From contig NZ_LBMH01000008.1 of NCBI RefSeq assembly GCF_001005305.1, positions 62,001-126,000 of the forward strand: a stretch of DNA of 64,000 bases. The letters run 5' to 3'. Source of the stretch: Kordia zhangzhouensis (GTDB lineage: Bacteria > Bacteroidota > Bacteroidia > Flavobacteriales > Flavobacteriaceae). Numbering within the stretch: position 1 is the first letter of the stretch; the number at the start of each line of letters is the position of its first letter. A program made the translations under genes and the position numbers. Below the pieces are notes generated by a model. It was not told the origin of the DNA, made no database searches, and saw only the letters and a list, made by a program, of their open reading frames with translations. This document shows, piece by piece, positions 32,560 through 43,337 of the stretch.

Positions 32560-33201
32560 ATGAAAGATACGTTCAAACATAAAGGAATGCGAAACCAATT
32601 GGCACAAATAGTTGCTGATAAGGGAATTACAGATGAAAAAGTACTGAATGGAATTCGAAACATTCCGCGTCATTTGTTTATGGACTCGAGTTTTGAAGCA
32701 CATGCATACCAAGATAAAGCATTTCCTATTGGAGCTGATCAAACAATTTCTCAACCTTATACTGTGGCCTTTCAAACACAACTTCTTGAGGTAACTCCAG
32801 GAGCCAAAATTCTAGAAATTGGTACAGGTAGTGGCTATCAAACTGCTATGTTACTCGAATTAGGCGCAAAAGTATATAGCATTGAACGTCAAAAAGAGTT
32901 ATTTAAAAAAACCAGTTTGTTTTTGCCCAAATTAGGATACAGAGCCAAAAAACTCATTTTTGGTGATGGCTATAAAGGATTACCAACCGAAGCACCTTTT
33001 GATGGTATTGTAGTTACAGCTGGAGCTCCTTATGTTCCCAAAGCTTTATTAGCACAATTAAAAGTAGGAGGAAAGCTAGTTATTCCTGTAGGCAGAAAAG
33101 AACAAATCATGACTTTATTTGTAAGAACTTCTGAAAAAGAATTTTCTAAACAAGAATTTGGAGAATTCCGCTTTGTGCCAATGTTGGAAAATAAGAACTA
33201 A
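32560..33201 (+). CDS. pcm: Protein-L-isoaspartate O-methyltransferase
   Basis: Pcm methylates isoaspartyl residues in damaged proteins so they can return to aspartate. The 213-residue protein opens with MRNQLAQIVADKGI, has NIPRHLFMDSSFEAHAYQD near 40, the substrate-binding GADQTISQPYTVAFQ near 64, the SAM-binding motif ILEIGTGSGYQTAMLLELGA near 87-106 and GDGYKGLPTEAPFDGIVVTAGAP near 130; all belong to this family. It has its own promoter with an almost absent leader. It is transcribed away from the Gfo/Idh gene. Confidence 0.94.
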   Translation: MKDTFKHKGMRNQLAQIVADKGITDEKVLNGIRNIPRHLFMDSSFEAHAYQDKAFPIGADQTISQPYTVAFQTQLLEVTPGAKILEIGTGSGYQTAMLLELGAKVYSIERQKELFKKTSLFLPKLGYRAKKLIFGDGYKGLPTEAPFDGIVVTAGAPYVPKALLAQLKVGGKLVIPVGRKEQIMTLFVRTSEKEFSKQEFGEFRFVPMLENKN

Positions 33202-33487: not shown

Positions 33488-36400
33488 ATGAATACATTCA
33501 TCCAATTTCTGTATGTGTTACAGAATGATTCTAATCAGTGGGAACGCTTCAATGCTGGCTCTAACAAAACTGAAATTACTAAAAATCGTATAGCAATGCT
33601 TCAATCTGCAAAGATTGAAGCGAAAACTGATATAGTTGCCATGTCTGCTAATGAACTTCGTTTATTTATATCGTCTTATTTGGACCAGACCTTAGGAAGT
33701 AAATTAGCAGAAACGTGTATTGGGTTAATCAAACGACAAATGCTCCAAAACCCAGATAGAGTTGCAATTATTGATGGAACTTCTGAAATTTATTATAAAG
33801 ACTTACAGAGAAAAGTAGATGAGGTAGCTGGCGAATTGAAAAGCCGCGGTATTTCCAAAGGTTCTTTAATAGGCGTATGCATGAATCGTACTTGGCAATT
33901 AGTTGCTGCATTACTTGGTGTAATGCAATCAGGTTGTGCATATGTCCCGTTAGACCCAACTTATCCTAAAGAGCGAATAGACTATATGTTGGTAAATTCG
34001 CAAGCAGTAGCAGCCATTGTTAGCAATCAAGAAACTGCTACTCTGTGTAATGAAATCCAAAAAATAATTCGAATAGGAGAAGTAGGGAGTTATGCAGATA
34101 CTAAAGTATATGCTAAAGCAACTGATTTAGCATATGTTATTTATACTTCGGGTTCAACTGGAGCACCCAAAGGTGTAGCTGTTGAGCAACGAAACGTGGT
34201 AGCAATGAGGCAATCAATGAAAGAAACATTTAGTACAGAAGAATTAAATGGGCTCTTAGCTGCAGCTTCTGTGTGTTTTGATACATCTGTAATGGAAATA
34301 CTAGGAACACTGTCTCTTGGCGGGACTATTATACTAGCTAAAAATGCACTCGACTTAACACAAATACCTGCAAAAGATAAAGTAAAAACTTGTGTAATGG
34401 TTCCATCATCAGTACAAGCACTACTTTCAACAGAAGATTTTCCTAAAAATTTGACCTGTCTTGTTTTTGGAGGAGAAGCTTTGAAGCGTTCAGTAGTAGA
34501 ATTGGCATTTCAGCAACAATCAATCAAAAAAATATTTAATGCATATGGGCCAACGGAAGATACAGTATATTCAACAATTGCAGAGATCTCTCGTGAAACA
34601 AAAGTTGTTACCATAGGAACTTCTGTGCCTGATTCACGCAGCTATATTTTAGATGAAGAATTGAATGTTGTACCTATTGGAGAAGCAGGTGAATTACACT
34701 TAGCAGGTAGTAAACTTGCACGTGGCTATTTATATGATGAAATAAAAACAAAAGAACGATTCATTACTATTAAAAATCATCCACAAATTAGAGATAAACG
34801 TTTATATAAAACAGGAGATTTATGCCGTAGATTGGAAAATGGTGAAATTGAATTTTTAGGACGTGTAGATCAACAAGTAAAAATAAGAGGATATAGGATA
34901 GAACTGGGAGAAATAGAATCGACTCTTGAATCAATGGATGGAATTCAAGCTGCTGCTGCAATAGCTATTGAAGGAGGTTTGGGACAAAAAATGCTTGCAG
35001 TGCATATTGTTAAGAATGATAAAACAGTTTCTGATGAAGAAATTAAAGATTTTTTAGGGAAACGATTGCCAAAATATATGGTGCCACAACGAATTTACCA
35101 TCGTGATGAATTGCCTTTATTACCTAACGATAAATTAGATAGAAAAAAGCTAGCTACAATAAGTAAAGAACAATATGCAGTAGAAGAGCAGGAAGGAACT
35201 TCTGTAATTGATGAAACAACGATTTCAAATCAAAAACACTCTATCTTAACAACTATTCAAAAAGAAGTAGCAGCGATTTTAAACCTACAAGAGCCTAGCA
35301 AAATAGTTGTAAATCAATCTTTTGATGGACTTGGGCTAGATTCATTAACAATTCTAGAATTTAGTAATAGACTCTCTAAGATGTTAGGAAAAAAGATTTC
35401 GGCTAGAACTATTTTAGAAAATGCTACTCCAGAATTGTTAGCCAATCAATTATCAGGAGAACTATCAACCTCCAATATAAAAGCTGCGCGTCCCTCATCA
35501 TCAAATACATTATCGGTATTTCAGTCACACATCCAATCAAGTCATCCAACATTTCAAGCGGCAAAAGTAGCCACATGGAATGTAACTGATAAAAGTAAAT
35601 TGGTTCAAGAAGTAATGAAAATGGTAAATGATGACCGAAGAAATCCATACAGTAAAATATTGAAAACAGGCAGTGCAACCAAAGGTATTGTTGGAGACGC
35701 TTATAATGACGATGTACAAGATGCTATCATTTGGACTACCAATTTGTATTTAGGATTAAATCGTGATTCTCAAGTAATGAAAGAAGCTTCCAAAGCTCTA
35801 CAAGCCTTTGGAACTGGAATGGGAACTTCTGCAGCGGCTTCAGGAATGACTGATCATCATTTGGAATTTGAAAAAGAATTTGCTGCGTTGGTAGGAAAAC
35901 CTAGCGCTTGTCTTTTTCCTACAGGCTACACTGCCAATGTAGGAGCAGTTGCAGGACTTTTAGGGGCAAATGACGTAGTGATAATTGATCAATTGTGCCA
36001 TGCCTCTATTGTTGATGGAGCACGTTTGTGCGGGGCAACAGTACGAACTTTTAAACATAATAGTGCAGAAAATCTTGAAGCTGTTTTACAATCGGAAGTA
36101 TCTCCATACAAAAGTATATTGGTAGTTTTGGAAGGAGTGTATAGTATGGGAGAAGGTGCTGCTCCGGTAGCAACTATTGTACAAACTGCAAAAAAATATG
36201 GAGCTTTGGTATTGGTTGATGAAGCACATTCATTTGGGTTTTATGGAAAAAATGGAGCAGGGATATGTGCAGCGCAAGGAGTAACCGAAGAAGTAGATTT
36301 TATAATGACAACATTGAGTAAAGCTTTGGGAAGTTTAGGTGGAGTTGTAGCTGCTAGTCAAGAGCATGTAAATTTTTTAAAGTCATCATCAAGAGCTTAT

Positions 36401-37210
36401 ATTTTTCAAGCTTCTATAAGTCCAGCAGACATGGCAGCGGCATTGACAGCTTTGCGACGTATTCGTACAGATCAAGGACTTCGAGACCGTCTTTGGGAAA
36501 CCACTCGTTACATGCGTAAGCAGTTTGAAAAAGCAGGTTATGATTTGGGAACAGGAGATGGACCAATTGTTACTCCACATTTTAGTGATAAGGATAAATT
36601 GTATGCTATTGTACAAGGTATGTATAAACGAGGAGTTCAAACCTCGGCAGTAACGTATCCAATTGTGGAAAATGGGAAAGGAAGATTGCGTTTCATATGT
36701 TCTGCGGCTCACACAAAAGAAGATGTGGATACAACTCTAAAAGCTCTTCAAGAAGCAGAAAAAGAAGTGGATATGCTACTAAGAGAAAAGAAAAATAATG
36801 TAGAAAATAGAAAACCATTGCGAAAAGATTTAATGACTTGGAGCGATTCTTTTATTTCACAGATTACAAAAAGACTTGCAAGTAGTATGTTGCCCGTTCC
36901 AGATTTTAAAATCAAAATAGCAACTTCAAAAGAAGCAACACCAATTATTATCCAGATAGAAAAAAATGCAATTCGTATTGCTGAGAATGATTTTGCAGAC
37001 TTATCTTATTGTTCTTTAATATTTAAGGATCAGCGGGCAGTAACAGCGCTGTGTACACATAACACACAGGCATTGCTAGATAGTATTTGTGATAATACTT
37101 GCGAATTGGCAGGTCAAACTGAACCTTTTGTTTGGCTTTTTGCTAGGTTGATAGAACAGCAAATATCTATTCAAGAAAACAATTTGCAAAAAGAATTAGT
37201 AGGCTTATAA
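33488..37210 (+). CDS. NRPS adenylation - carrier - alpha-oxoamine synthase fusion enzyme
   Basis: A 1240-residue multidomain protein; the ATG at 33488 is chosen over an upstream TTG at 33422. Residues 1-75 match nothing I know. Residues about 75-565 are an adenylation domain: A3 [11 protein letters not shown] at 219-229, A4 with FDTSVME, A5 [10 protein letters not shown]8 [19 protein letters not shown] and A10 Lys in PNDKLDRK. A carrier domain follows with phosphopantetheine Ser619 in GLGLDSLT. Residues about 719-1095 are a PLP alpha-oxoamine synthase (AOS): [10 protein letters not shown] and Lys945 in TLSKALGS. The last about 140 residues are unassigned. There is no condensation, thioesterase or reductase domain. 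Predicted reaction: an activated amino acid on the carrier is condensed with a second amino acid with loss of CO2, giving an alpha-aminoketone. No other biosynthetic gene adjoins it. Confidence 0.88.
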
Positions 37211-37260: not shown

Positions 37261-37719
37261 TTAACGAAAACTTTTTTTAACACGATCTAAATCTCGTTTG
37301 TTATCTCGATCTTTAATCGTTTCACGTTTGTCATGCATTTTCTTTCCTTTTGCCAAAGCAATAGATAATTTTGCCAGTCCTTTTTCATTGATGAATAAAC
37401 GTAAAGGAACAATCGTTAAGCCACTATTCTTAACATTTTTGTGTAAACTTCGAAGCTCTTTTTTATTTAACAATAATTTGCGAGTACTACGAGGTTTATG
37501 ATTGTAATGTGTTCCGTACATATATTCTTCAATGTACATGTTGACCACAAAAAGTTCTCCGCGTTCGTTGAATTCACAGAAACTTTCAGCAATAGAAGCT
37601 TTGCTCATACGAATAGATTTAATCTCAGTTCCCGTAAGAACAATTCCTGCAGTATACGTTTCTAAAATTTCGTATTGAAAACGCGCTTTTTTGTTTTGTA
37701 TGTTTATATTTTTTTGCAT
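37261..37719 (-). CDS. smpB: SsrA-binding protein SmpB
   Basis: SmpB binds tmRNA and carries it to stalled ribosomes in trans-translation. The 152-residue protein shows [38 protein letters not shown] and the C-terminal [20 protein letters not shown], the basic tail that becomes helical in the decoding centre. Length is normal. It has no operon partners here: it converges on the fusion enzyme gene and is divergent from ompW. Confidence 0.95.
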
Positions 37720-42245: not shown

Positions 42246-43337
42246 TTATTGTAGTGCGACACTATACAATTTCATAGTTTGTAATTTTCCTTTTAGTTCA
42301 TGTGTGCCTAAAGGAGAAACCAAAAATTCTACGTTTAAATTGAGTTTTTCTATTAAATCTTCTGAGATTAAAATATCCACATTTAAGCTGTTGCATAGCG
42401 CTTGAATACGAGCGGCAGCATTGAGTACATCTCCTGTAAATATGATTTCTTTTTTAAGAGTTCCAATTTCACCAGTTGTAACAGTTCCAACATGGAATCC
42501 AGCTTTAAATTTTGGAAAAACATTGAATTCTTCTTGAAACGTTTCTTGATTATCAAATAAATCTTGTTTCATCTTAAAAAAACAACGCACACAATTATTA
42601 TTCTTTATTCCGTTGTTGAGTTTCCAAGAAACAACCATTTCATCTCCAACGTATTGGTAAATTTCTCCAGAAGAATCAATTACGGCGTCAGATAGTATGC
42701 GATAGTATTCTTTTAGTAGCTTAAAATAAGTTGCATCTCCTAATTGTTCAGCGATTGTAGTGGATGATTTCATGTCTAAAAACATAAAAATACGTTGTTC
42801 TTGTTTAGGTTTGTGATATTTACCTGTTATGAAATTTACTAAAATTCCATGTCCTATATTTTCGCTTATTTCTGCATAAAAAAGAGAAAAACCTAACGAA
42901 ACAAACATTTGAAAACCTGTACTGAGAAAAGTAACGCTTTGTAAGTAGTCTGAAAATTTTTTCCAAACAAGATTGTCCAATATAGTTGTATTGAGTTCAA
43001 TACTTGCCGCTAGCGGAAACATAATAACGATTATGAGGAATAGAAAGATAGAGTAGATGACTAGCTTTCCTATAATTTTTTTTAGAAAGCTACTTTTACT
43101 AAATAATCGATTCAAAAAAAGTAGCTCAATGACTCCTATCAATATGCCTACAAAAGTCACAGCTATAGTAGCAAATATAAAGACTTGCCAATCGATTTCA
43201 ATGACTCCTTTAGGGCGATAATCATAATCTTTGGTGGCAGCAAATTCTACTAATAGGAAAATCATTCCAAAGAGCAACCATATCACACCAAATGGGAGAA
43301 TTTGAACAATATTTCTTTTTTGTTTTTGTGAAAGCAT
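42246..43337 (-). CDS. Membrane-anchored class III adenylate/guanylate cyclase
   Basis: A 363-residue protein. Four hydrophobic helices lie in about residues 12-32, 52-75, 92-113 and 138-155, followed by a class III nucleotidyl cyclase catalytic domain (180-355). Metal-binding Asp188 is in MFLDMKSST and Asp232 in YVGDEMVVSW; the transition-state pair is Asn306 and Arg310 in TGDVLNAAARIQ. The set is complete, so it should make cAMP or cGMP and is not a pseudo-enzyme. Whether it prefers ATP or GTP cannot be decided. It converges with the solitary peptide gene. A gap of 244 bp separates it from clpB. Confidence 0.88.
   Translation of the reverse strand: MLSQKQKRNIVQILPFGVIWLLFGMIFLLVEFAATKDYDYRPKGVIEIDWQVFIFATIAVTFVGILIGVIELLFLNRLFSKSSFLKKIIGKLVIYSIFLFLIIVIMFPLAASIELNTTILDNLVWKKFSDYLQSVTFLSTGFQMFVSLGFSLFYAEISENIGHGILVNFITGKYHKPKQEQRIFMFLDMKSSTTIAEQLGDATYFKLLKEYYRILSDAVIDSSGEIYQYVGDEMVVSWKLNNGIKNNNCVRCFFKMKQDLFDNQETFQEEFNVFPKFKAGFHVGTVTTGEIGTLKKEIIFTGDVLNAAARIQALCNSLNVDILISEDLIEKLNLNVEFLVSPLGTHELKGKLQTMKLYSVALQ

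Follow-up and report, generated by a model that had tools for sequence, protein, structure and literature searches.

The gene considered here occupies positions 33488-37210 (+) of the window, i.e., of the entire 64,000-nucleotide stretch of Kordia zhangzhouensis DNA that was analysed, and forms a single uninterrupted frame that specifies 1240 amino acids from its ATG. The frame, Pfam matches and orthologues define a protein of the order A-T-AOS followed by a predicted SCP2-like domain. Its adenylation (A) domain spans residues 82-549 (33731..35134, +) and combines the Pfam families AMP-binding (residues 82-415, 3.9e-72) and AMP-binding_C (residues 475-549, 4.5e-8); the NCBIfam model TIGR01733, which denotes an amino-acid adenylation domain, scores 369.4 bits, above its cut-off of 317.4. 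A carrier (thiolation, T) domain follows at residues 590-653 (35255..35446, +; PP-binding, PF00550, 1.1e-10, 42 bits against a cut-off of 20.8), and then an alpha-oxoamine synthase (AOS) domain at residues 699-1094 (35582..36769, +), recognised by profile and structure matches and overlapping an Aminotran_1_2 match at residues 746-1087 (6.2e-46). Neither a condensation domain nor a thioesterase domain was matched by Pfam in the 1240-residue protein. The first-pass annotation had described one A-T-AOS polypeptide, and this description holds: the A3 motif (residues 219-229), the phosphopantetheine serine, Ser619 (35342-35344, +), and the PLP lysine within the AOS domain, Lys945 (36320-36322, +), all lie where it had placed them, and a search of 33488-37210 for a frameshift that would split the domains into separate proteins found none.

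The upstream neighbour, which lies near the gene at most Kordia loci, is presumably pcm-like (32560..33201, +), and the downstream convergent neighbour, taken from the ORF list, is presumably smpB-like (37261..37719, -); we count neither as part of the system. Inspection of the ORF list by eye agrees with the earlier statement that the gene's immediate neighbours in the window include no exporter, regulator or tailoring enzyme. Promoter and terminator scans gave results at or below chance. Elsewhere in the window, a membrane protein is encoded at 42246-43337 (-); by eye, its C-terminal half resembles a class III adenylate/guanylate cyclase.

A survey of genomes for the same domain order shows that this architecture is far more widespread than chance would allow. 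Scanning species genomes with two AOS peptide patterns, a procedure that misses relatives having neither pattern, yielded 89 relatives, 80 of which were kept (50-76% identical to the query along almost its full length) and which belong to four phyla: Bacteroidota, Pseudomonadota, Acidobacteriota and Actinomycetota. Complete single frames of 1166-1409 amino acids, stop to stop, are present at 76 of the 80 loci; of the other four, L026, L037 and L039 begin at a contig end and L067 loses its frame. Full-length orthologues occur in nine of ten other Kordia genomes (59-69% identity) and are absent from one, such that the gene is present in 10 of 11 Kordia genomes when the window's own is counted. 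Since a sample of 395 Bacteroidota genomes searched at E 1e-90 contained a full match in the window's own genome alone (plus one match to the AOS part only), the gene is rare overall. Its presence is patchy: the genus to which the P. rubra genome belongs has it in 22 of 108 genomes, and that of an Aquimarina genome in 12 of 66. Plasmids gave no match at E 1e-100. The gene is not mentioned in the accessible part of a Kordia genome survey (PMC7477175), and a transcriptome paper on K. algicida (PMC10565126) is without the terms 'NRPS', 'nonribosomal', 'adenylation' and 'oxononanoate'.

All residue counts given below refer to the 81 rows formed by the window protein and these 80 loci. Residues 265, 266, 269, 304, 326, 328, 352, 360, 361 and 549, which we take to be the pocket positions by GrsA-PheA numbering, spell D-T-M-M-V-G-A-V-Y-K, reproducing the code that had previously been read by eye. 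We regard an Asp at the first pocket position together with a final Lys as the marks of amino-acid adenylation; Asp265 is present in 79 of the 79 rows that reach its column and Lys549 in all 81, which, along with the TIGR01733 score, bears out an amino-acid-type A domain. Across the 81 rows the code is mostly D-[T/P/A]-M-M-V-G-[A/V]-V-[Y/F]-K, with residue 304 among its most variable positions (Met in 58/81), and it changes little from Kordia to Nocardioides. Because the family code resembles that for isoleucine (DGFFLGVVYK), we lean toward a hydrophobic donor, and the donor alpha-amino acid is probably of this kind; but since no such donor code was found in the main texts of the literature checked, even 'hydrophobic' is something that we infer.

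For the AOS part, the best-scoring solved relatives are serine palmitoyltransferases (SPTs), and an AlphaFold model running from the carrier to the C-terminus (mean pLDDT 85.5, 51 sequences) matches SPT 3a2b with a Z of 49.5 and an rmsd of 2.1 over 391 aligned residues, i.e., it adopts the AOS fold. The NCBIfam scores for SPT (329.8 bits), bioF (319.3) and glycine C-acetyltransferase (315.4) are each below their own cut-offs, and therefore the domain is assigned to no single AOS subfamily. Ser619, Lys945, Asp911, His914, His838 and Arg1068 are invariant in 81 of 81 rows, as is Asn752, whose conservation is partly built in because one of the two search patterns includes this residue; loss of the catalytic lysine or the carrier serine in relatives, which the first-pass annotation had named as something that would refute its reading, was thus not seen. 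We take Lys945 to be the PLP lysine, Asp911 the PLP-ring aspartate, His838 the stacking histidine and Arg1068 the arginine that holds the carboxylate. Between Kordia TARA and K. algicida, comparison windows starting at residues 680-1040 are 79-87% identical in DNA and 88-98% identical in protein, which indicates purifying selection on the AOS.

The AOS-like domain might instead not condense at all, and might decarboxylate, transaminate or hydrolyse the loaded amino acid. What speaks for this is residue 782: of the 81 family rows, 74 have Ala and 7 have Pro there, and 9 of the 11 usable AOS paralogues have Arg (rows L110 and L116, in wrong frames, were left out of all paralogue counts). However, the other AOS catalytic residues checked are all kept, and two BioF-like paralogues also carry Ala at this column, so that Ala782 was rejected as a feature unique to the family; we regard a non-condensing domain as improbable. 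A different possibility is that the roles of the two substrates are reversed, with the carrier-bound amino acid forming the PLP aldimine and attacking an acyl-CoA, and the resulting beta-keto-alpha-amino thioester staying on the carrier. Many AOS enzymes use acyl-CoA, and the closest structural match, 3a2b, is a serine palmitoyltransferase; but the carboxylate-holding arginine, needless for a thioester, is kept in every family row (and all 11 usable paralogues likewise have Arg at its column), and the protein has no thioesterase match, which makes reversed roles quite unlikely in our judgement.

Profile searches of the two ends of the protein identified no convincing Pfam family for either. 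The N-terminal extension (residues 1-71; 33488..33700, +) is an optional feature of some Bacteroidota members: selecting loci by its start motif, we found it, at about 60-70 residues, at 19 loci besides the window's own (including L025 and L027-L032), all Bacteroidota, and it is missing from others, even inside Kordia. A Nif11-like leader was considered for this segment and dropped, as Pfam gave no support.

The C-terminus, which had been called unassignable, models as an SCP2-like fold (residues about 1110-1227; 36815..37168, +). Structure prediction for the last 150 residues, folded from 54 relatives with AlphaFold, reached a pLDDT of 91.6 and a pTM of 0.79. Foldseek matched this model to 2ksh (E 9.4e-5, TM 0.44/0.56), and its best 13 rows were all SCP2 or UbiJ-SCP2 entries, with TM-scores of 0.37-0.59; the best VIA match was 4uei (Z 9.7, rmsd 3.1, 113 aligned). 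Because a VIA Z near 8 is possible by chance, the case for SCP2 rests on the fact that SCP2 entries top both lists. Sequence searches with the C-terminus of the window protein gave nothing convincing, and the sequences of 2 of the 54 members matched Pfam SCP2, at best with E 0.0047; single members scored slightly better, at about 0.001, against two unrelated families. Tti1, a candidate relative from a profile search of solved structures, was discarded as one poor hit (E 0.26). The domain is poorly conserved, with 24-54% identity within Kordia, and in one copy (L067, from Bacteroidetes MAG-49) it is the site at which the frame is lost, through either sequencing error or decay.

The earlier idea of a locus without partners is upheld by a comparison of the neighbouring genes, which revealed no consistent neighbour families: the most widespread non-overlapping one reaches at most 6 of 30 genus labels (9/80 loci), at varied distances, and the nearest neighbours in 13 Aquimarina rows all belong to different families. 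Neighbours are partly common within genera, as in the P. rubra group, the two Microbulbifer, the two Sinomicrobium and Kordia, where the pcm-like gene lies beside the family gene at 8 of 10 loci, the window included (at L016 with one gene between). In Kordia L014 and L015 the gene is elsewhere, beside a large protein of about 1600 residues instead of the pcm-like gene, and it has therefore moved within the genus.

The remaining alternative is that the protein acts as a loading or tailoring unit for a nonribosomal peptide synthetase (NRPS) in trans, with an assembly line encoded elsewhere receiving its aminoketone or aminoacyl group. Another protein with an A3-like motif lies within the fetched flanks of 7 of the 80 loci. 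Judged by eye and by size, three of these are acetyl-CoA-synthetase-like and one is acyl-CoA-ligase-like, and the other three are larger (910 to 3059 aa): L030 of Fulvivirga marina, L042 of Flavobacterium hercynium and L056 of Acanthopleuribacter. The F. hercynium protein (L042:12151-15141, -; 996 aa) looks, by eye, like an adenylation-carrier-reductase, and those of Fulvivirga marina (L030:275-6715, -; 2146 aa) and Acanthopleuribacter (L056:12764-21943, +; 3059 aa) are possibly NRPSs. Thus, a large adenylating protein is near 3 of 80 loci, which would suit an in-trans role, but none is present in the fetched flanks of the other 77.

Condensation domains were sought at E 1e-5 in 31 carrier genomes (the window's own and 30 chosen among the 80), for which completeness is not given, so that single misses are possible. 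They are present in 22 of the 31, including the window's genome with 25 matches, which is again in favour of an assembly line elsewhere. Against it, nine carriers are without one: three Luteimonas (L092, L094, L084), three Aquimarina (L045, L053, L100), two Sinomicrobium (L046, L055) and Fulvivirga aurantia (L036). Moreover, release by an AOS leaves no thioester to pass on, and we consider a role within an in-trans NRPS unlikely. Phosphopantetheinyl transferases (PF01648) discriminate little, as all 31 carriers have a match but 10 of 14 control genomes have one too; the window's genome has three such matches, two of which lie on another contig (G000:C33, about 372000-456000), in a region rich in matches to condensation and adenylation domains. 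Because there are no consistent neighbours and 9 of 31 carriers lack a condensation domain, the gene probably works alone.

Within the family there are two AOS subtypes, and these were exchanged between A-T backbones. Phe at residue 755 defines type-2 AOS (15/81 rows), and it is accompanied by ten further AOS sites (722, 750, 780, 822, 883, 891, 950, 1001, 1005 and 1053). Taking a 75% majority in each group as the definition of a separating site, all 11 fall between 722 and 1053, and none in residues 80-556; not all are fixed (e.g., residue 1005 is Arg in 12/15), and Nocardioides (L102) is mixed for them. The A-domain code does not track AOS subtype. In trees of the AOS and the A domain built on the same 44 of the 81 rows, the latter by a quick method, the type-2 rows (from Kordia, Aquimarina, Fulvivirga, Cellvibrionaceae and Pseudoalteromonas) form one branch of the AOS tree with 100/100 support and a single subtype change, and the same label takes eight changes on the A tree. 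AU tests rejected a single type-2 clade on the A data (p 6e-77) and, on the AOS data, the grouping of K. periserrulae with Kordia TARA (p 2.5e-7, this pair having been chosen after seeing the identities); a constraint uniting all Kordia gave p 0.011 on the same AOS data.

The exchange can also be followed in individual proteins. K. periserrulae (type-1) and Kordia TARA (type-2) share 90% identity in the A domain and 78% in the AOS, and Kordia TARA and K. algicida share 93% in the AOS and 68% in the A domain. In DNA, K. periserrulae and Kordia TARA are 79-89% identical through the comparison window at residue 500, then fall to 47-59% between 530 and 650 and return to 69-78% in the AOS; other pairs also vary in the linker, and the break is therefore placed loosely, somewhere between about 530 and 680. 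Residue 780 presumably adjoins the AOS residue that discriminates the acceptor, and 755, 883, 950 and 1053 appear, by motif equivalence in the paralogue alignment and known AOS structures, to be in motifs bordering the active site. From these positions we propose that the AOS part sets the acceptor. The A domain shows no change that matches the exchange of subtypes, which agrees with an acyl donor that stays constant and an acceptor that varies.

Taken together, we consider it reasonably probable that the gene is a free-standing one-gene pathway, in which a carrier-bound aminoacyl group and a free amino acid yield a diaminoketone. Domains, conserved residues, the lack of consistent partners and the subtype exchange were all observed by computation, and the SCP2-like fold was modelled. 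Using ATP, the A domain would activate a probably hydrophobic alpha-amino acid and load it onto the phosphopantetheine of Ser619. The AOS domain would hold a second, free amino acid as its PLP aldimine at Lys945, with the carboxylate gripped by Arg1068, and a decarboxylative Claisen-type condensation with the carrier-bound aminoacyl group would then release an alpha,alpha'-diaminoketone, which could cyclise to dihydropyrazines. The SCP2-like domain would probably shelter or hand over a hydrophobic substrate or product, or brace the AOS dimer. The chemistry, the identities of donor and acceptor, and the role of the SCP2-like domain are all inferred, and the sequence does not reveal the acceptor.

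SPT, KBL, AONS, ALAS and CqsA share the fold and sequence family of this AOS domain, and each is an AOS protein on its own that relies on other proteins for its donor thioester. Fusion of carrier domain(s) to an AOS, as here, occurs in PigH (prodigiosin) and TamD (tambjamine), which in the portions of the sources available have no adenylation or SCP2-like domain described and belong to multi-gene clusters (PMC3870968, PMC4698589). The first-pass annotation had treated carrier-bound donors as special to PigH, which requires correction: L-serine and a carrier (ACP)-bound donor have been hypothesised for TamD (PMC4698589), and rhodobacterial SPTs prefer acyl-ACP (PMC9386255). The rhodobacterial SPT, AcpR and AasR likewise activate a donor, load a dedicated carrier and condense with a free amino acid, but they are three separate proteins with a fatty-acyl donor (PMC9386255). 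BioWF unites an activating enzyme and an AOS in one chain, as in the window protein, but its donor is pimeloyl or fatty-acyl CoA, it belongs to the biotin pathway, and no carrier domain is described in the available portion of the report (PMC9544090).

The same domain order was tabulated by Milano et al. in 2013 as A-CP-AOS ('A-CP-PLP2') proteins, e.g., Microscilla marina A1ZVW4 and Blastopirellula marina A3ZWL3; the accessible part of that paper gives no product, function or cluster for these entries, and describes no C-terminal domain, stand-alone behaviour or subtypes (PMC3870968). Because a Microscilla locus (L038) is in the family, A1ZVW4 may well be a member. The first-pass annotation named no characterised enzyme with exactly this architecture, and searches of the open-access literature, with subscription journals mostly outside coverage, showed no characterised A-T-AOS enzyme, but the order itself was already on record (PMC3870968, as far as that source was available). 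Nor did these searches show a precedent for the all-in-one form with an SCP2-like domain, independence from NRPSs or exchanged AOS subtypes, and the exchange of two subtypes between A-T backbones is new here.

If the free-standing reading is correct, a whole natural-product pathway is contained in one gene, so that expression of one protein in E. coli could suffice to find its product. Genome mining that centres on clusters would tend to miss such a lone 'NRPS-like' gene. AOS enzymes are used as C-C bond-forming biocatalysts, and the naturally exchanged subtypes constitute a ready experiment on acceptor choice in these enzymes. With rather low confidence, we extend this reading to a laterally mobile, NRPS-free, single-gene diaminoketone pathway whose AOS would be a swappable cassette determining the acceptor, with a fixed donor, and whose product, or its pyrazine dimer, would be a small diffusible metabolite common to unrelated, often marine, bacteria. 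The scatter of the family over four phyla, together with its little-changed donor code, suggests one compound class that is useful to very different bacteria.
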